Shown: piece by piece, positions 6,527 to 31,925 of the stretch
Position numbering within the stretch: the stretch's first letter is position 1
Layout: each line of letters begins with the position of its first letter
Origin: a virus
IMG/VR virus record: IMGVR_UViG_3300037189_021294
Coordinates: 1 to 34,931 of that record
Length of the DNA stretch: 34,931 nt
Direction: 5' to 3' (one strand)
Position numbers and translations under genes: made by a program
Notes under the pieces: generated by a model
The model's database searches: none
What the model was told of the DNA's origin: nothing
The model's input: only the letters and a program-made list of their open reading frames with translations

Positions 6527-7201
6527 TTATTGTAAATTAAATCTGCCCTTGGTTGCATTATAATTTTGTAAAATTTCTGATTGGGTTAATGCGCGGCTAT
6601 AAGCAAGATTGCAAGCTATTTTTCCATTCATTACATCTCCAACGCCATCTCCACCTATAGAATCAGCAGTAAATGAAGTTGTAGTAGAACCCGCGCCAGT
6701 ATATGTTTTATCTAAAACGCCATTAATATACATGTTTATAGTATAAGCAGATCCTGAATTTGTTATAGTCAAACAAATATTATACCATTTATTTAATGAT
6801 AAAATTTGATTGCCAATAATATTGAGACTTCCTACATTTGCGTAAACCGACAATCTAGTAGATGGATTAGTTTCTATCCAAAATCCATCAGCACTATTTG
6901 AATCAACTAATATTGGATCAAATGAAGTCAAAGAACTTTTCCAATACCAAGCTTGTATTGTATAGTTGCTTGGCACAGAAATAGTTGGAGAAATTAGCAC
7001 TTGGTCATCAAGCCCATCGAAAATAATTGCCCCATTATTGGCGCTGGTATAGACTGGGCCATTTGTTAAAGTTCCATTATTTGTACTTGAAGCCAAATTT
7101 CTCCATAATGTTCCAGCGTCAGGATAGCTGTTTTTATCAGCAGCATCAAGTTCAAAAATTAAACCATTGCGAACAATGTTGGGCCCAGTTCTGCCGCTCA
7201 T
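6527..7201 (-). CDS. LamG / concanavalin A-like lectin domain protein (224 aa)
   Basis: A single LamG-like jelly-roll domain. The start GPNIVRNGLIFELDAADKNSY, the central NGTLTNGPVY..NGAIIFDGLDD and IQAWYWK strands, and the end AYSRALTQSEILQNYNATKG are typical phage LamG/laminin_G_3 features; these domains bind glycans or proteins on cell surfaces. Its ATG overlaps the TGA of the upstream LamG gene (ATGA), so the two are translationally coupled. It is the third of three tandem paralogues that share both ends but differ in the middle, where the ligand-binding loops of this fold lie. It is probably a virion adhesin attached to or replacing part of a fibre; the absence of an anchor domain means partner proteins are needed (inference). 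Confidence 0.88.
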   Translation of the reverse strand: MSGRTGPNIVRNGLIFELDAADKNSYPDAGTLWRNLASSTNNGTLTNGPVYTSANNGAIIFDGLDDQVLISPTISVPSNYTIQAWYWKSSLTSFDPILVDSNSADGFWIETNPSTRLSVYANVGSLNIIGNQILSLNKWYNICLTITNSGSAYTINMYINGVLDKTYTGAGSTTTSFTADSIGGDGVGDVMNGKIACNLAYSRALTQSEILQNYNATKGRFNLQ

Positions 7202-7833
7202 AACAATTGAAATCTTCCCTTTAAAGCATTATAGGTCTGTAATATTTCAGCATCAGTCAATACCCTGTTATATGCTAATACAAATCCGCATTCACAAGTA
7301 GATATTTCTCCAGTATAAATTCCTGACCTACCAATTACTATTCCGTTTGGTCCTTGACCGCCAGTAATGCCACCTCTCACAATCAAAGCTCCATTTGAGA
7401 AAAATGCCCAAGAATTAGCAGCAGTATTGCCAGTACTTGCATAAATTCTCCAATTGAAATCAAGTCCTCCCGTAGGATTGTATAACCAGCCATTTTGAAA
7501 ACAAGCCAAAACGTTACCACTATAATGCCCAAGTAACCAATTGGTAGATTGACTACTAATAGTTCGTTGATATAGTCCTCCATTATAATATCTGACCGCT
7601 GAAATTACTGTAGATTGTCCTGAGCTTAAATTTAAACTGGCTGCAGTTGCATAACTGGTTCCACCAAAACGCATAACATTATTAACTATTGTTGGAGAAT
7701 TAGTTAATGTTGCATGATTGTTATTTCCACTTAAATCCGTCCATCTTGTTCCACTTCCAGAATAAGAACTCCTATCGGCAGCATCCAAGCATAATACCAA
7801 CCCATTTCTAACTATTGAAGGTCCATATCTCAT
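7198..7833 (-). CDS. LamG / concanavalin A-like lectin domain protein (211 aa)
   Basis: The second LamG paralogue. It begins MRYGPSIVRNGLVLCLDAAD, then WTDLSGNNNHATLTNSPTI, and ends AYNRVLTDAEILQTYNALKG. The middle (IISAVRYYNGG-type strand, NWLLGHYSGN, CFQNGWLYNP) is unlike its two neighbours. The length of about 210 residues is usual for a stand-alone LamG domain in phages. It overlaps both neighbours by ATGA junctions, at 7830-7833 and 7198-7201. The single-domain form and the chain of overlapping starts suggest that the three proteins are made in similar amounts, possibly forming a mixed complex. There is no signal peptide. Confidence 0.88.
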   Translation of the reverse strand: MRYGPSIVRNGLVLCLDAADRSSYSGSGTRWTDLSGNNNHATLTNSPTIVNNVMRFGGTSYATAASLNLSSGQSTVISAVRYYNGGLYQRTISSQSTNWLLGHYSGNVLACFQNGWLYNPTGGLDFNWRIYASTGNTAANSWAFFSNGALIVRGGITGGQGPNGIVIGRSGIYTGEISTCECGFVLAYNRVLTDAEILQTYNALKGRFQLL

Positions 7834-8540
7834 GTTAAATTGAATCTCCCTTTTAAAGCATTATAATTTTGTAAAACTTCAACGGGGCTCAATGCTTTAT
7901 TATATGCTGCAAACATAGCAAATGAACCGCTTGAATTAAATGAGGCAGGTGAACCATATTGTCCTAATAAAAAAGGACTGGAGCTTGATGCTGGATTTAT
8001 GTGAGTGCCTGCGGTAACAGTCCTATCAACACCATTTAGATAAATTCTCACGCTAGAACCTGATGAGGTGACTGATATATTATACCAAGTGCCAGTGCGT
8101 ATTGTATTATTATTTATATTTGTCTGTTGTGATGCTCCAGCTTGATATGAGTTATATATTAAATTGCCATTGGTATTTAGTGAAAAATAATAACCATTGG
8201 AATTAAAAAGGCCCTTCCAAAACAAAGGGCTATTTTGCCCAGATACCGTGCCACTTAAAGTTGTAAAATATGACCATTGATTAAATGAAAATCCCCCACC
8301 CGTAAAATTAAGAGCACTACCAAAATTGATGCAGCTACCTGAGCCATTTATCTGAATATTGCCTTTATTGTTTGAATTATAAGTTGGAAGCAATGCGGTG
8401 CCAGAAAAAACTCCATTTGAATTGTTTGGTGTTAAATCTTTCCAAAGTGTTCCAGTTGGAACATATGAATTATAGTCAGCCGCATCAACACACAACACTA
8501 ACCCATCTTTAACAATTTTCGGTCCACGAGAAATTGACAT
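7830..8540 (-). CDS. LamG / concanavalin A-like lectin domain protein (236 aa)
   Basis: The first LamG paralogue downstream of the large fibre. I place the start at the ATG complementary to 8538-8540 (MSISRGPKIVKDGLVLCVDA) because that is where the family begins and because it falls one base after the stop of the 1576-residue gene. The open frame extends 30 codons further up, but that part overlaps the upstream gene and reads as an unrelated Ile-rich tail. The end is AAYNKALSPVEVLQNYNALK. The central strands include FNQWSYFTTL, NISVTSSGSSVRIYLNGVDR and SSSPFLLGQYGSP, as expected for a LamG fold. Together with its two neighbours it forms a lectin cassette. Confidence 0.88.
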   Translation of the reverse strand: MSISRGPKIVKDGLVLCVDAADYNSYVPTGTLWKDLTPNNSNGVFSGTALLPTYNSNNKGNIQINGSGSCINFGSALNFTGGGFSFNQWSYFTTLSGTVSGQNSPLFWKGLFNSNGYYFSLNTNGNLIYNSYQAGASQQTNINNNTIRTGTWYNISVTSSGSSVRIYLNGVDRTVTAGTHINPASSSSPFLLGQYGSPASFNSSGSFAMFAAYNKALSPVEVLQNYNALKGRFNLT

Positions 8541-8541
8541 A

Positions 8542-11500
8542 TTAAATCTCAACCTCCAATTTGGGAACATCTTTTCTTTCTGCAAATATATGATAATAAT
8601 AATTGATGTCTTCAAAATAATTTTTACCAACTTTTACTCCAGAAATATTAACTTCTTCAACGAAAAGTTTTTGATAATTACCAATTGGGGTGAGGGACAC
8701 AGTTATAGAATTTTGATCTACCAATCCGCTCCAATAATTGGGGAATTGAATAAAGCTATTATTTGTTTTACCTCTCAAATAAACAGAATGTTCTGGACCC
8801 TCAAGAACGCCGTATTGTAATTTTTTCCCAACTTGTGTTGGGTGATCAATCAAGAAAGATTTTGTATTAGCAGAGAAATGACCAGTAACAGTTAAATTTC
8901 CGCTGATCGTTTGCGTAGTATTGCCAGTGGTATAGACCACATTTGAAACTGTGGCAGCAGATGCTTCACCACTTAATAATACTCCTGTGCCATTAACAGT
9001 TGGACGAGAGATAAAAGCTTTAACTCCAGAAATTGTTTGGTTACCAGTTGTATAGACAACTTGTCCACTTAAACTAGTGATTTGACTTTGTAAATTTGAA
9101 CCTGTTAAGATTAAATTTGCGCTTGTTGCAAAAGAACTTGTGGAACCCGTTAAAACTGATATGCCACTAACATACAATCCACTCCTGAAATTTCCTGAAC
9201 CATTTACATCTAGGGTATAATTTAAAGCTGCATTACCGGTAAAGTTAACACCAATTTTTCTATCATTTCCTGCGGTAGCAGCAGAAACGAATAATCCTTT
9301 TTGCGAACTATCATCAGGTTGACATCCAAAATAAATACCACCTTGAGTTCTAAAAATATCAGGCCCCGTGTCAGCCATTTCTCCAAAATATAAAGCATAG
9401 CTTTCTTGACCACCATATCTATTAAATACTAAACTATTGCCACCGTCATTAGATTTGGCATAAATTCTTGGGGTAGTGTTGCCTTCGATAAGGACTGCGC
9501 CATAGATATGTAGAGTTTGTTCTGGAGAAGCAGTTCCAATACCAACTCTTTTATTTGATGACGAACTAGTATTCAATATAATATCGCCATATCCTGCATC
9601 TTGTCCAGCATCAAAAATTATACTATTTAAAATATTAAACTTTAAAGTTGGAGTTTTCCCATATTGATCAGTAGTAGAATCATTAAAATTTAAATAACTC
9701 CCACCACCAACAAGATTTGAAGTACCAATTGCACCATTAACATCTAAAGTATAAGCTGGAGAAGTATTACCTATGCCAAGATTGCCGGCGGTATCGAGAG
9801 TTAATGAGCCTGCAACTCCAGCATCTTTGGCTGCTGTATATCCTGCTTCATCTACAGTAGTCATCTGGCTAATACGAAACTTACCATCGTTATCTGTACC
9901 TAAATAGTATCCATAAGGACCAGATTCATCTTGTGCTCTTGCAGCTAATGTTAATGAAGCTGCATTGCGACTTCCAACACTACCATCTCCATTAATATGA
10001 ATATTTGCATTCTTAGAATTACCAAGGAGAGCTATAGTAGGATAAGCTCCAAATATGCCACCAACTCCTGGAGTCTGAATATGAAGTGGATAAACTGGTG
10101 TTGCAGTACCAATACCGACACTATTATTAAAAATTCCAGTACCCGCAAAAGTTTTAATCCCCGAAATTGTTTGATTGCCAGTTATAAAAACAACTTTGCC
10201 ACTTAAACTATTAATCTGCCCCTGAAGATTAGAGCCAGTTGACGCAATGGATGTAGTTAATGTTCCGCTAATGCCAGTAGCAGTTGTTGTTAGAACATAA
10301 TTTCCTGTGAGTGTTCCACTAAGGCTTGAAATTTGACCTTGTAAATTTGATCCAGTAGAAATTAAATTGGCACTCGTTGCAAAAACTCCAGTCTGGCTTG
10401 TTGTAACGAAATTACCAGTTTGACCAGTTGTAACAAAAGATCCAGTATTAAAGTTTCCGGAAACAATTATTCCATTGGTTCCACTTATATAAACAGATAC
10501 TCCACTCACTCCTATGATTGACAAATTTCCAGTTAATGTATTTAATTGAGAAACTCCTGCGGCAGAAGAAGATGATCCCCCAGTAGAGACTGGTATTCCA
10601 TTTATATAAAGGCCCCCTGTAAAATTACCAGAGCCATAAACATTTAATCCATTAGAGTCAACAGTTAAAATATTTGATCGAGCACTGGTTCCAGTACCAT
10701 TGCCAATTATTAATAATGAAGTAATATCAGGGGTATTAAATTTTCCACCAACATGTTGGTAATTTCCAGAAGCAATTGTCGAAATGCCTTCTGCATGAGA
10801 CCCAGCTCCGATAGTTATAGTATAAATACCTTCTGCATGTGAATAAAGTCCAGAAGCAGTTGTTACAAATCCTTCTGAATGAGATTCATCTTTATATGCA
10901 TATGTAGAATACCCTTCTGAATGAGATTGTGTTCCGTTTGCTTGCGTAAAACTTCCTTCAGAATGAGAATAATCTCCATTTGCATATGTATATGAACCTT
11001 CTGCGTGAGAGGCAAATCCAACTGCGAAGTTGGAGTCGCCTTCTGCATGAGACTCCTCTCCATTTGCAAAGTTATATCCTCCTTCAGAATGAGAAGAATT
11101 TCCATTTGCAACTGTCGAAATACCTTCTGCATGAGAGCCATATCCATTTGCTTCTGTACTATCGCCCTCTGCATGAGAAACTGATCCATTTGCAGTTGTA
11201 CTAATTCCTTCTGAGTGTGAATTTTGACCAATAGCAAATGTATTATTTCCTTCTGCGTGAGAAGAAACCCCACTTGCATATGTATATGTGCCTTCTGAAT
11301 GAGAGCTTTGCCCAAATGCCGTTGTTCCTCCACCTTCAGCATGAGATGTTGCGCCCCTTGAATAATTATTTGAACCTTCTGCATGGGAAGCAAAACCAAC
11401 TGAAAATGTGCCATATCCTTCTGCATGAGAATAATCTCCGCTTGAAATTGCTAACCAGCCTTCTGCATGAGAATAGGCCCCAGAGGATATGGTAGTAAAT

Positions 11501-13272
11501 CCTTCAGCATGAGAACCATATCCAGAAGCAATTGAGTATACTCCTTCTGCGTGACTGTATGGTCCCTTGGTAATTGTTGTTCCACCTTCGGCATGAGAAT
11601 ATTGTCCACTTGCAATTGTAGCAGATCCTTCTGCGTGGGAATAAAGACCACTCGCAATATTGCCATTTCCTTGGATCAAAGACCCACTCACAATCATGCC
11701 AGTTAAAAAAGTTTTGATTCCAGAAATACTTTGGTTTCCAGTTGTATAAACTGCATTTGTAACTGTTACAGGAGGAACCCCTGTTAAAACTGCAATTCCA
11801 CTTACATACAATCCACTCCTAAAATTTCCAGAACCATTTACATCTAATAAATATTGAGGAGAATATGTATTTATACCAAATTTAGAATCTTTAAAATATA
11901 AATTTTTACTATAAAATTGAAGATTTCCAGTCGAATAATAAAGAAAACTTGGAGATACAATCATTGGGCTTTGTGATTGATAGCTTGTATTATTAAAATA
12001 ATCATAACCAGGTGGCACATAATAGCCTGGAGGATAGGAACCTGGGTCAATTGTTCCAAGATATATTGATGTATTATTAACATCTAAATAGTAATTCCCT
12101 GTTGCTCCAAAAGTTGGATCAGTAACAACTACTTTATAACCAGCTGCATTATTTACTGGATTTATTTCTATATCAAACCAACCACTTTGTTGACTAGTTC
12201 CTGGATTAATTGAAAGATTATAAGATGAAGCAGAATATACTCTTGTATTATCATTAGCGTATTTATATGCGTAAATTTTAAATAGATAATTTGCTCCAGT
12301 TGCTTTATAAGCCCATGGGGCATTACTAACTCCAGTCATGAATGTAGCGGAAGCGCTAGATACATTGTCTATTGATAATTGAGAAGCGTTTGGCCCGACA
12401 ATTCGATTTACATTTATTAAATCTAAAGTAGTATTGCCACTTCCAATTATATTTCCACCCGCAATAATATCTCCACCCGCAACAATTTCATTTAATGTAT
12501 GAAGATTTCCATAAACATCTAATTTATATTGAGGCGATGAGTTTCCAATGCCAAAATTTCCAAAGTTTGCACAAACCCAAGAATTTCCATTATTATTAGT
12601 TTGAGTTGTTCCAGCCAAGAAATAATCATAGCCAATCCAATTTTTAGCATTTGCGGGACTAGTTGCATTACCAAAATCACCATTATAATTAAAAAAATAA
12701 GATGCATCGTTATCCCAAAGATTAAAATAAATACCGCCTTCACCAGCGGAATCAGTACTAATATTTATATCATTAAATGAGCGTAAATTAAGATTTTCCC
12801 CACCATCATCTAATTGAATATAATTACTGCTATTAATGCCCCTTAAATAATTACTATTGATTGTAATATCACCATTTACATTTATTCCTGTTGCAAAAGT
12901 TTTAATTCCAGAAATTGTTTGATTTCCTGTTGTATAAACTATATTATTTAAATTACCACTAATCCCACTAATATTGGCGCTATTTATATAACCACTTGGA
13001 TTTGAATCTGGATAATAATTCTCACCAACATAATAAAGAATTTGAGTATAGAGACTATTTAAATCTGTTTGAGTTTTAAATACTCCTGTCTGCGAGCTCG
13101 TTACAAAACCGCTTGGGTTAGTAACTAATGGATAAAATACACCAGAAAGAACTCCAGTAGAGGGAATGGGCGGATTACCAGAAAGATAATTCTGGATAAT
13201 TTGAACAGTGTATCCAGAAAATTCAGGTTGGTTTGCTTGCCTTAGCCTTATCGTCGAATCAAATGCTGACAT
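8542..13272 (-). CDS. Giant tail fibre with FDSTIR anchor, YadA-head-like repeats and C-terminal fibre domain (1576 aa)
   Basis: Domain order: residues 1-20 are the anchor MSAFDSTIRLRQANQPEFSG shared with two other fibres. Residues 20-110 match the 182-residue protein. A shaft follows with YTTGNQTISGIKTF and 'GIGNSSPQYKLDV' segments. Residues about 540-840 hold 21 SH(A/S)EG repeats of 14 residues plus one decayed copy (YQHVGG), of the YadA/hemagglutinin head type. A block shared with the 615-residue fibre (SNLQGQISSLSGTLTGNYVL) comes next, then more 'GIG..SP..LDV' modules and VNGTGVLLSGEA. Residues 1470-1576 are a recognisable terminal fibre domain (SFLIDHP, LQYGVLEGPEHSVYLRGK, LTPIG, FAERKDV). 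The protein is presumably the main long host-binding fibre. It heads the unit with three LamG genes and has a GTGTAATA motif before its start. Confidence 0.92.
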   Translation of the reverse strand: MSAFDSTIRLRQANQPEFSGYTVQIIQNYLSGNPPIPSTGVLSGVFYPLVTNPSGFVTSSQTGVFKTQTDLNSLYTQILYYVGENYYPDSNPSGYINSANISGISGNLNNIVYTTGNQTISGIKTFATGINVNGDITINSNYLRGINSSNYIQLDDGGENLNLRSFNDINISTDSAGEGGIYFNLWDNDASYFFNYNGDFGNATSPANAKNWIGYDYFLAGTTQTNNNGNSWVCANFGNFGIGNSSPQYKLDVYGNLHTLNEIVAGGDIIAGGNIIGSGNTTLDLINVNRIVGPNASQLSIDNVSSASATFMTGVSNAPWAYKATGANYLFKIYAYKYANDNTRVYSASSYNLSINPGTSQQSGWFDIEINPVNNAAGYKVVVTDPTFGATGNYYLDVNNTSIYLGTIDPGSYPPGYYVPPGYDYFNNTSYQSQSPMIVSPSFLYYSTGNLQFYSKNLYFKDSKFGINTYSPQYLLDVNGSGNFRSGLYVSGIAVLTGVPPVTVTNAVYTTGNQSISGIKTFLTGMIVSGSLIQGNGNIASGLYSHAEGSATIASGQYSHAEGGTTITKGPYSHAEGVYSIASGYGSHAEGFTTISSGAYSHAEGWLAISSGDYSHAEGYGTFSVGFASHAEGSNNYSRGATSHAEGGGTTAFGQSSHSEGTYTYASGVSSHAEGNNTFAIGQNSHSEGISTTANGSVSHAEGDSTEANGYGSHAEGISTVANGNSSHSEGGYNFANGEESHAEGDSNFAVGFASHAEGSYTYANGDYSHSEGSFTQANGTQSHSEGYSTYAYKDESHSEGFVTTASGLYSHAEGIYTITIGAGSHAEGISTIASGNYQHVGGKFNTPDITSLLIIGNGTGTSARSNILTVDSNGLNVYGSGNFTGGLYINGIPVSTGGSSSSAAGVSQLNTLTGNLSIIGVSGVSVYISGTNGIIVSGNFNTGSFVTTGQTGNFVTTSQTGVFATSANLISTGSNLQGQISSLSGTLTGNYVLTTTATGISGTLTTSIASTGSNLQGQINSLSGKVVFITGNQTISGIKTFAGTGIFNNSVGIGTATPVYPLHIQTPGVGGIFGAYPTIALLGNSKNANIHINGDGSVGSRNAASLTLAARAQDESGPYGYYLGTDNDGKFRISQMTTVDEAGYTAAKDAGVAGSLTLDTAGNLGIGNTSPAYTLDVNGAIGTSNLVGGGSYLNFNDSTTDQYGKTPTLKFNILNSIIFDAGQDAGYGDIILNTSSSSNKRVGIGTASPEQTLHIYGAVLIEGNTTPRIYAKSNDGGNSLVFNRYGGQESYALYFGEMADTGPDIFRTQGGIYFGCQPDDSSQKGLFVSAATAGNDRKIGVNFTGNAALNYTLDVNGSGNFRSGLYVSGISVLTGSTSSFATSANLILTGSNLQSQITSLSGQVVYTTGNQTISGVKAFISRPTVNGTGVLLSGEASAATVSNVVYTTGNTTQTISGNLTVTGHFSANTKSFLIDHPTQVGKKLQYGVLEGPEHSVYLRGKTNNSFIQFPNYWSGLVDQNSITVSLTPIGNYQKLFVEEVNISGVKVGKNYFEDINYYYHIFAERKDVPKLEVEI
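9149..9212 (-). repeat. Direct repeat copy 1 (codes GSGNFRSGLYVSGISVLTG)
   Basis: About 64 bases, nearly identical to 11783-11846 in the same gene; both code for NGSGNFRSGLYVSGI(S/A)VLTG. The two copies are about 2.6 kb apart and in the same orientation and frame, so recombination between them would delete the YadA-like repeat region and keep the frame. Confidence 0.75.
10745..11662 (-). repeat. 42-bp in-frame tandem repeat, 22 units (SHAEG head repeat)
   Basis: Each unit codes for 14 residues of the form x-S-H-(A/S)-E-G-x5-(A/S)-x-G. I count 21 intact SH(A/S)EG units and one decayed unit. In DNA the core is CCTTC(T/A)GCATGAGA or a variant read on the plus strand. In YadA-like heads this repeat forms a left-handed parallel beta-roll with one turn per repeat (established knowledge), so about 22 turns are expected here. 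The array also creates false open frames in other frames and on the plus strand. Confidence 0.9.
11783..11846 (-). repeat. Direct repeat copy 2 (codes GSGNFRSGLYVSGIAVLTG)
   Basis: Partner of 9149-9212. The repeat pair flanks the SHAEG array and the block shared with the 615-residue fibre. Confidence 0.75.
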
Positions 13273-24911: not shown

Positions 24912-27353
24912 TTACCTATTGTAGGTATAGGGATTAGAATATGTTCCAAACAATCCCGTTACCCCGTTATCATCAGGGAATCTTATTATTGTATAGATAT
25001 ACACATATCCATTGTTAGGAAAAGAGTATTGGTCTGCTGGCCATCTGATACCTGTTGCATTACCAGTAAATGAAAATAACGGCGGATCAGCGATATCGCT
25101 ATAATTTACTCCACTATTCCTTACCTTCATTATTATAGATTTTCCAGTATAGAAATTACTAAAATCAAAATTTATTATAGGCTGGTGTGCACCTGCATTA
25201 AACTGTCCAGTAATTATCAAATTAAAAATATCCAATCCAGAAGGTTGCAAAACAACTGAATCATAATTTCCATTAAAATTTAATATATAATCACTAGTAT
25301 ATCTTAATAATGATGGTTGACCAGATGGTCCCACAGGACCTTGTGGACCAACAGGACCTGGCGCACCAGTCATTAAATTTGCCCCAAGGTTTATAGTGGC
25401 ATTACCATAATTATACCATAAAAAATAACCTCCAGAAACAGTAGTATTAACTATGCCCGTTCCACCAGATTGAACAGTAAAACTCAAAATGCCACTAGTA
25501 GAATTATATGAGTTTACTTGCCCCCAGCAATAAGTACCAGCATAGGTATTTGATGCAATAACGATATTCTGATAAGGCGTATAAGAATATCCAATTAATC
25601 CACTATTTCTAAAAGAAACAATTTGACCAGTTTGAAATCTTGCTCCAGTCCCACTTAATCCTGAACCATTTACGGTTATACCAGTTATATTGTTAGCGTA
25701 GGACCCCGTTCCCGTTGGAAAACCAGAAATTACATAAAAGCTTGAACTATATCGGTCAGCTATTCCAGAAGCTCCTGTTGCACCGATTGCACCAGATTTG
25801 GCAAGTAATTGCCAAGGTGCAGAAGGAGGATAAATTCCCAAAGCAGAAGGGCCTGTATTTATATATGTAGAACCAATATAAGATATTGTGGAGTTGACTC
25901 CATAATCAAGGGCGGGATTAAATTCTCCAGAAAAATAATTTGTTAAAGATCCTGGAGGACCTTGAGGGCCATCTACTCCAGAAGGCCCACCGCTTGGCAG
26001 AGGAACCCAATTTGTATAGTTACCGTCTGTTTTTAAAAATCTTAACTGATAAGCATTAGTACCAACTTGTTGATATTGGGAAGAATAAATTCCTACGCCA
26101 ATTCCTGTTGCACCACTTGGACCTTGTAAACCAGAGGGTCCTTGTGCCCCCGATGGACCAACTGGACCAATTGGTCCAATACCAGAAGAAACATTTACAT
26201 CTCCACAAACAATTGCATATCCAGTTGGATAAGTAACAAGATAATCTAAAGTTGTATCTCCACCAAGGGAATAAAGAGCAAAACCATATTTATAATTACT
26301 TAAGGCTGTAAAATTGGTTGTAAATGAAATCTTTGTTCTTGCAGCATTATTTTGCAAAGTACTATAATAAACTTCGCTATTAGTATTTTCTATATTGTTA
26401 AATAAAGTCGGGCTTGTAGAAGTGTCATAATAACCAGTTGCGGTTGCATTTGGAAAAAATACCATTCTCCAATATCCTGTACCATTTGTAGGATCAGTAT
26501 AATAGTTTAAATAATCTCCAACATTGAATGGTACCGCGCTTCCAGTAAAAAATAAACCAGTTAAAATATCAATATCCGATTGAGTAATTCTATGAGTACT
26601 TAATCCACTGGCATCAATTGTATACGCCATTCCCCTCATTAAAGATATAGGAGGATTAATGGTTCCAACATAATAACTATCAACAGTTACCCCACTTGGA
26701 AAATTTACTTTTGGATAAGAGGGAACATTGGATCCTGAATTAAAATATAAATTAATGGACCCTGGTGGTCCTTGTGGACCAGCAATCAGTTGGACGGGTG
26801 CACCAAGAGGTTGATAATTATCAAATTGAGGATATATATAATTACCGCTTTGATAAAATCCAGTAAGGGAAACGCCTGTTGCCCCAGTTAATGGAGGAAT
26901 ATCAAGTACGGAAGAAGTGCTATTATTAAAATAAAGAGTCAGCTGATAATTTGATGAATTGTAGGATGCCCCAGTAACGCTTGTGCCAGTTGGACCCGTT
27001 ATTCCTGTTGCTCCACTTGGCCCTTGAATACCCTGCGGCCCCTGAATTGAAATAAAGTTTCCAGAAGATGTAATCTTATATCCATCTATTTGAACAACTC
27101 CGGCCCCACCAGAACTATAAGCAGTAAGGAAAGAGCTTCCAATTTGAATTCCGCTACCAGAAGGGAGTGTAATAGCATTTGAATAAACATTTTTATAATA
27201 ATTTGTTGATGAACCTAAGCTATAAATTCCGCTACCAGATGGAGTAATATTGCCAGATAAAAGATAAGAAGAAGAGGGTACAACACCAACAACAAAACCC
27301 GAAAGTTCTGTTTGGTTTATCTGCCTTACTCTAATTGTTGAATCAAATGCCAT
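24912..27353 (-). CDS. Collagen-like tail fibre with FDSTIR anchor (813 aa)
   Basis: The N-terminus MAFDSTIRVRQINQTELSGF is the anchor shared with two other fibres. Six short collagen-like Gly-X-Y stretches follow: residues 104-123 (QGPQGIQGPSGATGITGPTG), about 192-198, 388-415, 460-470, 520-530 and 660-680 (GAPGPVGPQGPVGPSG). Between them are beta-rich modules. The last 130 residues (DYILNFNGNYDSVVLQPSGL, IRWPADQYSFPNNGYVYIYT) may be a terminal knob. Collagen triplets in phage fibres form trimeric shafts. It lies between the large terminase and the portal, away from the other fibres, and heads the unit 813-portal-249. GTGTAATT lies 12 bases before the ATG. Confidence 0.88.
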   Translation of the reverse strand: MAFDSTIRVRQINQTELSGFVVGVVPSSSYLLSGNITPSGSGIYSLGSSTNYYKNVYSNAITLPSGSGIQIGSSFLTAYSSGGAGVVQIDGYKITSSGNFISIQGPQGIQGPSGATGITGPTGTSVTGASYNSSNYQLTLYFNNSTSSVLDIPPLTGATGVSLTGFYQSGNYIYPQFDNYQPLGAPVQLIAGPQGPPGSINLYFNSGSNVPSYPKVNFPSGVTVDSYYVGTINPPISLMRGMAYTIDASGLSTHRITQSDIDILTGLFFTGSAVPFNVGDYLNYYTDPTNGTGYWRMVFFPNATATGYYDTSTSPTLFNNIENTNSEVYYSTLQNNAARTKISFTTNFTALSNYKYGFALYSLGGDTTLDYLVTYPTGYAIVCGDVNVSSGIGPIGPVGPSGAQGPSGLQGPSGATGIGVGIYSSQYQQVGTNAYQLRFLKTDGNYTNWVPLPSGGPSGVDGPQGPPGSLTNYFSGEFNPALDYGVNSTISYIGSTYINTGPSALGIYPPSAPWQLLAKSGAIGATGASGIADRYSSSFYVISGFPTGTGSYANNITGITVNGSGLSGTGARFQTGQIVSFRNSGLIGYSYTPYQNIVIASNTYAGTYCWGQVNSYNSTSGILSFTVQSGGTGIVNTTVSGGYFLWYNYGNATINLGANLMTGAPGPVGPQGPVGPSGQPSLLRYTSDYILNFNGNYDSVVLQPSGLDIFNLIITGQFNAGAHQPIINFDFSNFYTGKSIIMKVRNSGVNYSDIADPPLFSFTGNATGIRWPADQYSFPNNGYVYIYTIIRFPDDNGVTGLFGTYSNPYTYNR

Positions 27354-27385: not shown

Positions 27386-29227
27386 TTAAAGAAGCACTGG
27401 TTCAAAAGTAGAGTTATTTTCTTCTTGTGGACATCTGGTAATGTCATAATAACATTTCATTCCCCAGCAACCAAGCATAAGGGCAGTATAGGAGTCGCGC
27501 CTCATTCTTGTTGATGTATTGTCTCTTTTCATTATTTGTGGTAAATCAAAGCTTTGGGTACCCTTTGCTGTGGTTTTTACTTCAATAGAAGCGCACTCAT
27601 ATTTTGTATTTTTGAGCAAGATTTCTTGGGTATCAATCAAGTCGGAGACGCTTTCTTCATCTATTAAATTTAAATCAACATTTGCAGAAACAGCTTTTTC
27701 AAATGATGAGCCATCAGCTTTTATGCCGCCACCAAACCAAATCTTTTTATAGTCAATGCATCCTTGTAGCCATTCATTTCCTTTTCTGATAAAGTCTGAT
27801 GTAAAATATTGGGTAAAAGCAATCTTATGCATTTGTTTATTGTAGCCCTTTCTTGCTAATTTTAATTGATCTTCTAATTCTGCCCCATCTTTTTCAGCAT
27901 AAAATTCAAATACTTTAATTTCTATACCATCTTTCCTAAACAATTCACTTTCATTAGCAGATTCAATGAATTGATAACCAGCATAGTCAATAATAATTAG
28001 GTCAATATTAAAATTACTATATATGTAATAAAAATAATTAATATGATCTTTTAGGTCTTTACCAGCTTTGGCATAGTTATGAACAACCGTTCCACCAATC
28101 CTTCCTGGTTCCTCATCTAATTCTATGACGCACATACCAAAATGGTCAGCAGTGGCAGAGTTAGAGAAGTTGGGGTCAATGGCTAAGATATATTTTTTAT
28201 CTTTTTTACCTTGGAGTAAAAGCGTTGGAGTCTCTCCATCTGGGACGGTACATTCAATCATTTTCTTCATTGAAAAATAACTGTCTGACCCATCAATAAA
28301 TTGGGCACCATATTCTCTCTTGAATGTGGCAGCATTTGATTCATTGCTTTGGGCTTGTTTAATAATATTCTTGTCCACGCGGTCAAGAGGAATTGCATCC
28401 CAAGCCATTTGACTTACAAAGTATTTGGCTCCATTCTCTGATATCTCTGGAGAATAGATTTGTTTAACAAATTCATCATACTTTTTATAAAGAAATTCGC
28501 AAGTATAACTTGCTGAAGAAAGCGCAATCAGTTTAGCTTTATTAGAGAACTCCATCCTATCTTCTTCTTTTAAAACTCCTCTACGAATAAGCTCTGTTTC
28601 TTTTGCTCTGATAATTTGACGCTCTTTAATGTCTTGAGGAGCCAAAAGAAATGGCATCAATACTTTTTCGACTAAATCCTCATTCATCAAAAGGAACTCG
28701 TCAATAATTAATATGTTGGCACGGAAACCGCGAATCTTTTCTCCATTAAGCGGAATGGCAACAATCTCACCTCCATTAATTTTCCATCTAAATTCGTCAT
28801 TTCTTTTACTTTTTACTCCCATTGCTTGAAAAAGTAATTGGGCATCATGGCTGTCACATATTTTTTCAATGTGATTAAAGATAAAACGAGCAGTTCTAAA
28901 TGTTGGTCCAGCAATAAGGATATTTGATCCTGGATAAAAGATGGTTTGCAATATACAAAACATCGCCGCTGAAAATGTTTTACCAAGACCGCGCCCCCAG
29001 ACACAAAGAGTAAAATTACTCTGCATCATTCCCTTAATATTTATAATTTGGTCAGGATATAATTTAACTCCAGTCAATAATTCTGTAGTTAAACCAAGAT
29101 TGCGGTGAAGAAATCTAGCAAGAGTAATTCTTGCTTCTTTTGGCTCCAATTCGCCTTTTAAATCTAAGAAGATTTTATTTACATCTTCTACTGGAACTTT
29201 ATATTTTTCGGGAGAATGCCAGCTCAT
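27386..29227 (-). CDS. terL: Terminase large subunit (613 aa)
   Basis: DNA-packaging motor ATPase and nuclease. Walker A is at 78-84 (GRGLGKT), Walker B with the catalytic acid at 171-178 (NILIIDEF), and coupling motif III at 235-240 (ALSSAS). The RNase H-like nuclease begins near residue 346 (YILAIDPNFS, Asp351), with a second acid in IDLIIIDYAG (Asp414). The length of 613 is normal for the T4 gp17-like group. It acts at the portal vertex to pump and cut DNA. The start is supported by AGGAG five bases before the ATG and overlaps the upstream nuclease gene by ATGA. It closes the regulatory/packaging unit 32369-27386. Confidence 0.95.
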   Translation of the reverse strand: MSWHSPEKYKVPVEDVNKIFLDLKGELEPKEARITLARFLHRNLGLTTELLTGVKLYPDQIINIKGMMQSNFTLCVWGRGLGKTFSAAMFCILQTIFYPGSNILIAGPTFRTARFIFNHIEKICDSHDAQLLFQAMGVKSKRNDEFRWKINGGEIVAIPLNGEKIRGFRANILIIDEFLLMNEDLVEKVLMPFLLAPQDIKERQIIRAKETELIRRGVLKEEDRMEFSNKAKLIALSSASYTCEFLYKKYDEFVKQIYSPEISENGAKYFVSQMAWDAIPLDRVDKNIIKQAQSNESNAATFKREYGAQFIDGSDSYFSMKKMIECTVPDGETPTLLLQGKKDKKYILAIDPNFSNSATADHFGMCVIELDEEPGRIGGTVVHNYAKAGKDLKDHINYFYYIYSNFNIDLIIIDYAGYQFIESANESELFRKDGIEIKVFEFYAEKDGAELEDQLKLARKGYNKQMHKIAFTQYFTSDFIRKGNEWLQGCIDYKKIWFGGGIKADGSSFEKAVSANVDLNLIDEESVSDLIDTQEILLKNTKYECASIEVKTTAKGTQSFDLPQIMKRDNTSTRMRRDSYTALMLGCWGMKCYYDITRCPQEENNSTFEPVLL

Positions 29228-30147
29228 AATTCTCCTATATCATATAAATATTGAAGATCAACTTGTTTTACTTGCTCATCGGCAGAGAATATTTTTTGAA
29301 TGATTCTACTTGCTTCATCCCTATTTCTTACAAAGAGAAATTGAATACATTCATGCTTCTGCAATAAATCTCTAATGTTGTGATGAATAAACTCTATGGG
29401 TATTTTAATTTTACCATAAACCTGTCTTTGGGTTGGGAACTTCTCTAATGAATCAAACGAACTCTCTACTAATATGATTAAATAAGCTCCAGCCTCCTTG
29501 GCTCTAATAATTTCTCTTTCAAATCTTTCTATTCCACCAGATAATGTTCCCCATGCATCCCCAAGGCTTTTACGTTCAATATAGATATTAGAATTAGCCA
29601 TTCTATAATCTCCAAAACTCATGCCTTTTGTTCTAGTAGTATTGTCAAAGTCCAATGGATTTTGCTCTCTTGAATCGGCAAATATTACTTTTTTAGAAAT
29701 ATCTTTGAAATCTTTTTGATCTAATTCTTTTTTTGGAAAACGAACTTTAAATCCTAATTTTTCACAAAATTGATTGTAGTCACCAAATTTTTCGTTAATA
29801 TATTTAATTCCAGGAACCATTAATGTTCTCAATTCAATTTGAGTGGGTGCATAAACTAAACCTTTTTTTTCTTTTCTTTTTAAAAGGAAATTTTTGGTAT
29901 AAATTTCTCCAGTTATAGGCGCAACAGAATCTAACCATGCTTTTAAATTATTTTTAGAATTAAATTCTGCACTAAAATAAAATTCTTTATTTTTATATTT
30001 AATTAGTGATCCATTAGATCTATCTCGTCTAGGATAAAATTTTTGATAGTATTCTGCCTGAGTCATCTTATGGGTCTTCAAATGTTTATGAAGACCGCTA
30101 TCATTATCAAATTTTCTATCGCAAACTTTGCAAATAATATTATCCAT
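29224..30147 (-). CDS. C2H2 zinc finger plus ERCC4-family nuclease (307 aa)
   Basis: Residues 6-26 are a C2H2 finger (Cys6, Cys9, His22, His26; CKVCDRKF....GLHKHLKTH) followed by MTQAEYYQKFYPR. Residues 153-300 match the ERCC4/XPF nuclease fold: VIFADSREQNPLDF (Asp158, Glu161), SFGDYRMANSNIYIERKSLG with the ERKxxxD motif (Glu191-Arg192-Lys193 ... Asp197), and AYLIILVESS. The ERCC4 family cleaves branched or flapped DNA. The gene overlaps its upstream neighbour by eight bases and the large terminase by four, so it is produced with the packaging motor. A likely role is resolving replication branches before packaging, a job done by endonuclease VII in T4 (inference). Middle residues 45-150 resemble no domain I know. 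Confidence 0.85.
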   Translation of the reverse strand: MDNIICKVCDRKFDNDSGLHKHLKTHKMTQAEYYQKFYPRRDRSNGSLIKYKNKEFYFSAEFNSKNNLKAWLDSVAPITGEIYTKNFLLKRKEKKGLVYAPTQIELRTLMVPGIKYINEKFGDYNQFCEKLGFKVRFPKKELDQKDFKDISKKVIFADSREQNPLDFDNTTRTKGMSFGDYRMANSNIYIERKSLGDAWGTLSGGIERFEREIIRAKEAGAYLIILVESSFDSLEKFPTQRQVYGKIKIPIEFIHHNIRDLLQKHECIQFLFVRNRDEASRIIQKIFSADEQVKQVDLQYLYDIGEL

Positions 30148-31243
30148 ATAAAATAGAATCCCTGTCTAAACCCAAAATTCTTGCTTTGATTTCTGCCATG
30201 CTTGTGAGTTTTTCAACTTCGTTTGCTATGGCAACCTGCTCTAACTCTCCCAGTTTAAGCATTTTTAAACGCTGTTCTTCATTGCGCCAATCTTCAACAA
30301 GATTTAAAATAGAAGCATTTTCTTTTATCTGTTTGGAAAGGCGGGTACTTCTTTTTTCTTTAAGATCATCAAGAAGGTCATTGCATCGTTTCAAACATTG
30401 GTCATACTCTGTTCCAGCTTTACCAATTGCTTCTACCAATCCCATGGAAACTTTCATTGACTCTGGATCAGCAGTAGTAAATTCTTCTAGTCTTGCCTGC
30501 ATCAACTCACTTCTTCTTTTGATGCTAAAGCTACGCACAGTCTGATTTGACAATTCAATATATTGGTCAATTTCTTCTTGTGTTAAATCTGGTTTATCGT
30601 AGGTGTAACGGATAAAAGAGTCTTCGCAAAGATTCCTATCTTCTTGACTTTCAAAAGTATTCATTTGTCTAATGAATCTGTAGGTATGAAGATAATTAAT
30701 CAACATTTCTAAACCCTTTTTTTGTTTTGCATTTAACTTTTCTTTATCTAGGGTAGAATTGACATACTTATTGACTCTCCTTAAAACCTTATCAATTGTT
30801 GCAGGAGGTTGATAATTTTCAGTGGGGACATCTTCGTTTTGCGCTTGATTGTAAACTACTCTGCCATCCAAAGTTTTTGTAAATTCATTAACTACGCGAG
30901 TTTCAGCATTGAGGTTTGTTAAATTATTGTTATTGAACAATATCTTAGCCATGTCCAAAGAAGTCATTGTAGAGGCATTATTGATAATATATTGCTTATG
31001 ATCTTCTGTTAAAATAACTTCTTGAGTTTTGGGTGAATAATCGCTAGAAGCTTTTGCTTTTAAATTACATTTTGCAAGGAAAGCTTTAATAACTCTGCCC
31101 TGCCAGCTTCTGCCATCATATTCGCCGCCAAAAATTCCTTGAGTCAATTCTTTTAATCCTGGCGGACTGTTGGGGTTTTTATTCCAGAGATCTAAAACTT
31201 GTTTTTCTTGTTCTGGAGTTAATGCCTCTTGCACTGTTTCCAT
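30140..31243 (-). CDS. Candidate small terminase subunit (367 aa), helical DNA-binding-type protein
   Basis: An all-helical, charged protein. The N-terminus (EKQVLDLWNKNPNSPPGLKE, LTQGIFGGEYDGRSWQGRVI) could be a helix-turn-helix. A second short domain (LTEDHKQYIINNASTMTSLD, MAKILFNNNNLTNLNAETRV) has a similar helical layout. The C-terminal part from residue 245 on is long helix (LLDDLKEKRSTRLSKQIKEN, LKMLKLGELEQVAIANEVEK). Small terminase subunits have an N-terminal DNA-binding part and a helical oligomerisation core, and they usually lie just before the large subunit. Here the nuclease gene is in between. The protein is longer than most small subunits, so this remains a position-based proposal. 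It starts one base after the sigma factor stop. Confidence 0.45.
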   Translation of the reverse strand: METVQEALTPEQEKQVLDLWNKNPNSPPGLKELTQGIFGGEYDGRSWQGRVIKAFLAKCNLKAKASSDYSPKTQEVILTEDHKQYIINNASTMTSLDMAKILFNNNNLTNLNAETRVVNEFTKTLDGRVVYNQAQNEDVPTENYQPPATIDKVLRRVNKYVNSTLDKEKLNAKQKKGLEMLINYLHTYRFIRQMNTFESQEDRNLCEDSFIRYTYDKPDLTQEEIDQYIELSNQTVRSFSIKRRSELMQARLEEFTTADPESMKVSMGLVEAIGKAGTEYDQCLKRCNDLLDDLKEKRSTRLSKQIKENASILNLVEDWRNEEQRLKMLKLGELEQVAIANEVEKLTSMAEIKARILGLDRDSILYG

Positions 31244-31244
31244 A

Positions 31245-31925
31245 TTAATTTAGCCCCTCTTCTTTCATATATTTTTTAGCCTTATTAATAATAGACTTTT
31301 GAATATTTTTTAGTTGCCTGTATCCTGGGGCGCGACCTTTTTCATTGGAAATGAAGCCAAGCTTTTTAGCAACATCAGATTCTTCTTTATGGTCAATATA
31401 CAAACCTTTGTAAACTTGATATTCTACAGCTTTTAGAATCTTTTTCATTATGATGTGCAATTTATTTTCATCATCTCGTGAATAACTTGATTGCTCGGAG
31501 ATTTCTTGTATTTCGTGAGAATGATTTTCTATTGAGAGTGGCAGTTTAACAAAATTTGCAGGTTGTTTATTCTTTTTCCAATGAGCATAGAGTGGGCAGG
31601 ATTCACATTGTTCTTTATAAATTTTACAACCATCTGTATCTATTGCGGCGTCACATCTTAAACAAGGGCGAGCATAATTTGTATAATGATTTCTGACTAA
31701 GTTTCTGATTTGATTGGTTATAATCATTCCAATCCAAGGCTGCAATGGTTTTTCTGGATTGTATTGTTTCCATTTTTGATGAATATGTATTCTTATTATC
31801 TGGGATACATCGTCATAGTCCATCCAAGCAATTGATGACAAACTCCATTTAGATTTTCTCTTTGCTATTTCCTGATTGATTAAAGGAAGGCTATCCTCAA
31901 ACCTGGGCCTTTTAATTTTTGTCAT
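31245..31925 (-). CDS. Phage late-type sigma factor (gp55-like, sigma-70 family) with zinc cluster (226 aa)
   Basis: Residues about 25-83 match sigma-70 region 2 as found in T4 gp55-like phage factors: MDYDDVSQIIRIHIHQKWKQ, YNPEKPLQPWIGMIITNQIR, NLVRNHY. An inserted cysteine cluster follows (Cys88, Cys91, Cys100, Cys107, Cys110: RPCLRC...GC..YKEQCESCPLY), probably binding zinc. Residues 165-222 look like a region-4-type helix-turn-helix (EESDVAKKLGF, RAPGYRQLKNIQKSI). Such factors redirect host RNA polymerase to late promoters that have only a -10-like box. The likely target is the GTGTAATW motif in this window (inference). It is encoded between a zinc-ribbon protein and the small-terminase candidate, with short junctions. 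Confidence 0.8.
   Translation of the reverse strand: MTKIKRPRFEDSLPLINQEIAKRKSKWSLSSIAWMDYDDVSQIIRIHIHQKWKQYNPEKPLQPWIGMIITNQIRNLVRNHYTNYARPCLRCDAAIDTDGCKIYKEQCESCPLYAHWKKNKQPANFVKLPLSIENHSHEIQEISEQSSYSRDDENKLHIIMKKILKAVEYQVYKGLYIDHKEESDVAKKLGFISNEKGRAPGYRQLKNIQKSIINKAKKYMKEEGLN

Follow-up and report, generated by a model that had tools for sequence, protein, structure and literature searches.

The 34,931-base virus record IMGVR_UViG_3300037189_021294 from IMG/VR, hereafter the window, encodes on its minus strand a protein that joins a C2H2 zinc finger to an XPF/Mus81-type (ERCC4) nuclease domain, directly upstream of the gene for the large terminase (terL). The nuclease is of a known kind and stands in an unusual and informative place. 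The arrangement is real and strongly conserved, and the fixed position before the packaging motor suggests that a cutter of eukaryotic and archaeal style serves DNA packaging, a mechanism that is plausible and for which we regard the case as about evenly balanced.

Organization of the terminase locus

The initial annotation had described the open reading frame of the nuclease as overlapping the large terminase gene, and both its position and the overlap hold: the stop codon of the nuclease gene and the start codon of terL share 4 nt, and at its other end the nuclease gene overlaps the upstream gene, here termed up367, by 8 nt (Table 1). That the nuclease gene is real is confirmed by dN/dS values of 0.048 and 0.069 against two relatives, indicating purifying selection, and by the at least 520 relatives recovered in an ERCC4-centred scan of IMG/VR. 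The corresponding values are lower for terL (0.018 and 0.034) and for up367 (0.016 and 0.021). An overlap of the terL start with the end of the nuclease gene, counted where the start lies about 10 bases or less before the end of the stop codon, recurs in 113 of 158 relatives.

Table 1. Features of the terminase locus, with positions in the window
Feature	Position	Strand	Remarks
C2H2-ERCC4 nuclease gene	29224..30147	-	307 aa, ATG start; open reading frame, profile matches, AlphaFold model
C2H2 zinc finger, residues 6-26 (C6-x2-C9-x12-H22-x3-H26)	30070..30132	-	Conserved in the family
Helical middle, residues 100-134	29746..29850	-	Faint resemblance to PF18780, the homing-endonuclease-associated repeat with a putative DNA-binding role; suggestive only
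ERCC4 (XPF/Mus81-type) nuclease domain, residues 152-292	29272..29694	-	VIA-align and Foldseek matches
Catalytic motif GDY-x(9)-ERK-x3-D, residues 179-197	29557..29613	-	Invariant in the 45-member alignment
ATGA overlap of nuclease stop and terL start	29224..29227	-	GGAG precedes the terL start
terL, large terminase	27386..29227	-	613 aa; PF03237 (1.7e-8), phrog_2 (9.3e-29)
up367	30140..31243	-	Helical, HTH-like N-terminus, long coiled coil; candidate TerS, a guess from its place and shape
Sigma-70 region 2-like protein	31245..31925	-	PF04542 (7.7e-6); member of the conserved block

The order of genes on the minus strand is PhoH, a Zn-ribbon protein, a sigma-70 region 2-like protein, up367, the nuclease, terL, an 813-aa collagen-like protein and a 708-aa protein which, by its size and place, is probably the portal; a 151-aa open reading frame lies on the plus strand between the PhoH and Zn-ribbon genes. 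TerL possesses the ATPase motifs, and the acidic residues D351 and D414 of its nuclease region are conserved across 87 TerL sequences. The model of up367 (pLDDT 78.8) has no significant fold match, and its sequence has no significant match among the PHROGs profiles, to the genes upstream of terL in SPbeta, MaeS and AR1086-1, or to the annotated TerS of Mosig; its place and its HTH and coiled-coil shape nevertheless permit the guess that it is the small terminase (TerS).

Several other genes of the window merit comment in their own right. The sigma-70 region 2-like gene, two genes upstream of the nuclease, is a candidate late-gene sigma factor and is found in the relatives of the first scan except L008, in which the contig is cut at this point. 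The collagen-like protein (24912-27353, minus strand), with GPQG and GPSG repeats, is a structural protein occupying an unusual place between terL and the portal-like gene that is kept in relatives. Further along the same strand, a 1576-aa tail-fibre-like protein (8542-13272) carries many SHAEG-type, YadA-like repeats and a C-terminus that by eye resembles an intramolecular chaperone, and three tandem paralogues of 224, 211 and 266 aa (6527-8630) share the pattern IV.(N/D)GL...(L/V)DAAD..SY and are possibly lectin-like domains.

The ERCC4 domain and its active site

The window protein matches the Pfam ERCC4 model PF02732 over residues 170-285 with 26.6 bits against a cut-off of 24, and the PHROGs family of ERCC4-type nucleases (phrog_3490) with E = 3.8e-10. 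Within an alignment of 45 family members, in which identity to the window protein falls as low as about 40%, 43 match PF02732 at E of 0.1 or better (best 1.6e-16) and all 45 match phrog_3490. The full XPF/Mus81 catalytic set is present, comprising D158-x-RE, GDY at 179-181, ERK at 191-193 (in the form ERK-SLG-D) and D197, and its residues (D158, R160, E161, G179, D180, Y181, E191, R192, K193 and D197) are invariant over the 45 aligned members; one small subgroup (L158/L169/L195) has ADY in place of GDY.

An AlphaFold2 model built on the 45 family members (pLDDT 94.6, pTM 0.88) places residues 152-292 closest to the archaeal enzymes, with VIA-align yielding Z 13.2 and an rmsd of 2.3 over 125 residues for A. 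pernix XPF (2bgw_B) and Z 12.7 for P. furiosus Hef (1j24; Foldseek E 1.9e-6), followed by Mus81-Eme1, FANCM and human XPF. Both domains, the C2H2 finger and the XPF/Mus81-type nuclease, are supported together with the ERKxxxD signature, as first noticed from the sequence. The description of this combination as eukaryote-like was overstated: structurally the nuclease domain is closest to archaeal XPF and Hef, and many haloviruses are annotated with ERCC4 nucleases. The C-terminal tandem helix-hairpin-helix, (HhH)2, is absent, as the chain stops at residue 307, about 15 residues past the ERCC4 domain.

The zinc finger and the helical middle

The first 27 residues form the C2H2 finger, which by itself scores 18.8-19.1 bits in Pfam, under the curated cut-offs, although the zf-C2H2_4 model is matched by 40 of the 45 family members. 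C6, C9, H22 and H26, as well as H20, are identical in all 56 full-length members of the first set; the finger also has a hydrophobic core pattern, with a helix at residues 16-26 in the AlphaFold model, and may bind metal. The resemblance of the helical middle to PF18780 is weak in the window protein (E 0.021, 15.6 bits against a cut-off of 26) and in the 5 of 45 members that match at all (best E 1.7e-4).

Finger and full catalytic pattern are retained jointly in 83 of the 87 members of the larger set. The finger is degenerate in L163 and in the L158/L169/L195 group and missing in L048, L049 and L055, all of which keep the nuclease core. Since these few members drop or degrade the finger and yet retain the nuclease, the comparison of sequences points to the nuclease as the fixed core of the protein and to the finger as a usual yet dispensable aid.

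Conservation of the linkage with terL

The three overlapping genes form a cassette that runs from up367, the possible TerS, through the nuclease to terL. All 13 relatives in a first scan of IMG/VR (94-52% identity) have terL downstream of the nuclease and up367 upstream. The set was widened by TerL-centred, ERCC4-centred and divergent-TerL scans of IMG/VR, with the best 80 matches taken per scan. Linkage to terL in relatives had been set beforehand as a point on which the idea could fail, and the outcome is strongly positive: seen from the nuclease, terL lies downstream at all 90 testable loci in IMG/VR and up367 upstream at 88 of 88. Seen from terL, and counting each distinct gene among the matches listed that is preceded by 400 nt or more of sequence, the nuclease lies upstream in 158 of 159. 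In the lone exception, L234, an unrelated reading frame, by eye a 2-oxoglutarate oxygenase, is directly upstream of terL, after which the contig ends. As the scans cover the best 80 matches each, the nuclease may be lacking from TerL lineages that are more remote.

Pairwise distances across 87 cassettes are strongly correlated between nuclease and terL (r = 0.81), nuclease and up367 (0.875) and terL and up367 (0.86), which fits vertical inheritance of the nuclease with the cassette. Mean identity is 50% for the nuclease and 64.5% for terL, the nuclease being the faster to evolve.

Every contig comes from a metagenome; the large ones carry a linear classification and could be fragments. When one genome per GTDB species was searched, a lone match appeared on a contig of a Flavobacteriales MAG, which is too little for a host assignment. 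The full nuclease protein was found in no cultured phage of INPHARED, where tblastn with two members recovered matches to the ERCC4 domain alone, nearly all of them in haloviruses. TerL relatives in INPHARED are about 20-31% identical, and those of SPbeta, MaeS, Slash-like and Clostridioides phages (about 25% identity) have a different, non-ERCC4 gene directly upstream of terL. The open-access literature that we searched contains no description of an ERCC4 nuclease in such an arrangement with a phage terminase.

Insertions around the cassette are a separate feature of a few relatives. HNH or endonuclease VII-like genes, recognized by eye, separate the ERCC4 gene from terL in some (L125:4912-5865, L128:5043-6005, L149:4967-5515 and L049:2809-3543), marking a homing hot spot. 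Intein-like, in-frame insertions interrupt TerL at the Walker A motif in L128:6013-8934, L149:5490-8618 and L190:4991-6646, where similarity to TerL stops at residues 84-87 and the reading frame remains open. A few relatives carry, between up367 and the nuclease, genes that by eye are glycosyltransferase-like or sulfotransferase-like (L135:1713-2986 and L139:3406-3990).

Functional implications

The best single reading of these observations, though an unproven one, is that of a branch resolvase coupled to packaging. On the sequence evidence we consider it an even call that the protein is an active, structure-selective endonuclease of the XPF/Mus81 type belonging to the packaging module, where it would most likely clear branches, flaps or junctions at the terminase. 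Concatemeric DNA generated by recombination would bring such structures to the motor, and the ERCC4 nuclease would cut them there, with the C2H2 finger and helical middle supplying DNA binding in place of the (HhH)2 of cellular XPF and Mus81. A relative of 170 kb encodes a UvsX-like recombinase, a primase, a clamp-loader-like ATPase and a phage exonuclease; the recombinase, primase and exonuclease make recombination-dependent, branched replication likely, and branched concatemers would be expected. The Holliday-junction resolvase gp49 of T4 is bound to the portal and allows packaging halted at Y-junctions to resume (PMC9958956; PMC3485210), and the role proposed here for this phage clade would equal that of gp49 in T4.

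A serious rival, although we judge it unlikely, is that the protein is a cleavage partner of the terminase, its finger and middle binding a sequence at the packaging start site and its ERCC4 domain nicking there or stimulating TerL. The HNH protein gp74 of HK97, encoded beside the terminase, stimulates TerL in vitro to cleave cos (PMC9410871), and the nuclease shares with gp74 the position directly upstream of terL. The linkage would fit this role and that of a resolvase equally well. The finger together with the homing-endonuclease-like helical repeat further suggests sequence-specific binding; against this, a few relatives keep the nuclease with a degenerate finger or none, and TerL itself keeps the conserved acidic D351 and D414. 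ERCC4 enzymes, moreover, are known for selecting structure rather than sequence. The nuclease could in principle do the work of gp49 or that of gp74, with its fold favouring branched DNA.

It is also possible, if quite unlikely, that the protein is a general junction nuclease of recombination, replication or repair that lies in the late block beside terL and makes no direct contact with the motor. Neither in haloviruses nor in magroviruses is the ERCC4 nuclease described as a packaging protein: that of magroviruses is listed among replication genes (PMC10160649), and in HRTV-27 no terminase gene is annotated within 6 kb of the ERCC4 gene gp75. Against such a role, terL and up367 accompany the gene almost without exception on numerous divergent contigs, and in the relative G006 the replication genes are located elsewhere.

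That the gene is a selfish homing endonuclease aimed at the neighbourhood of terL appears very improbable. Regions adjacent to terL are hot spots of homing genes (PMC10448857), as the HNH genes and the intein-like TerL insertions described above also illustrate, and the weak similarity to the HNH_repeat points the same way. The ERCC4 gene, however, is fixed in 158 of 159 cassettes among the matches listed rather than patchy or mobile, with overlapping reading frames, co-divergence with terL and strong purifying selection, and the patchy HNH-like insertions highlight this difference. The homing explanation is disfavoured, if not refuted, because no close relative among the matches listed has an empty but otherwise intact site. 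To our knowledge there is no homing enzyme of the ERCC4 type. Least of all does the nuclease seem directed against host or competitor phage DNA, an alternative raised in the initial annotation that has gained no specific support and that we regard as hardly credible, since the gene is conserved in a strict, co-diverging packaging cassette and not in a variable accessory region.

As to other resolvases in the clade, the Pfam models for endonuclease VII, RuvC, RusA, RecU, NinG and DUF3882 found no match in 7-10 records, with the endonuclease VII model also missing a T4-like control phage, and a search with the Pfam T7 endonuclease I model found no match anywhere. Genes of the PHROGs family "endonuclease VII" (phrog_1035) are present in 5 of 9 contigs and distributed patchily among relatives; they are scattered in multiple copies, and the one that was read has an HNH-like sequence, so they resemble homing HNH genes more than a core resolvase. 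We therefore dropped a vacant resolvase niche as proof, given the failure of the endonuclease VII model on the control and the presence of phrog_1035 genes, and the replacement of endonuclease VII by the ERCC4 nuclease, which the first reading had entertained, is not established in view of these patchy genes.

If the protein does clear branches for the terminase, phages would have independently recruited a junction nuclease of archaeal and eukaryotic style into genome packaging, and a single-chain, finger-guided relative of XPF would offer a compact model for substrate choice by these nucleases. The nuclease would also point to a third packaging gene that has been overlooked in a clade with hundreds of members from metagenomes, of which INPHARED contains no cultured isolate. 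With confidence a little short of even, we propose that it typifies a hitherto undescribed class of nuclease in the packaging module, of XPF/Mus81 type with a C2H2 finger of its own, that forms a constant third part of the terminase cassette and could be the first packaging resolvase in tailed phages to be based on ERCC4.

Comparison with known systems

The proposed resolvase resembles T4 endonuclease VII (gp49) in its putative role of clearing branches for the packaging motor, whereas the folds are unrelated and no homology is claimed. To the gp74-type HNH proteins of HK97 it is comparable in the location of a nuclease gene directly upstream of terL, the catalytic domain being HNH there and ERCC4 here. 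The ERCC4-type nucleases of haloviruses and phages (phrog_3490; HRTV-27 gp75, HSTV-2) share the ERCC4 domain, but HRTV-27 gp75, at about 145 aa, is without the 150-residue N-terminus. With XPF, Mus81 and Hef (PF02732; 2bgw, 1j24) the window protein has in common the fold of residues 152-292 and all the catalytic residues, while it lacks a helicase as well as the (HhH)2, and no pseudo-nuclease partner was found; the missing (HhH)2 and partner subunit imply that its junction preference may differ. What the window protein has instead is an N-terminal C2H2 finger and a helical region.
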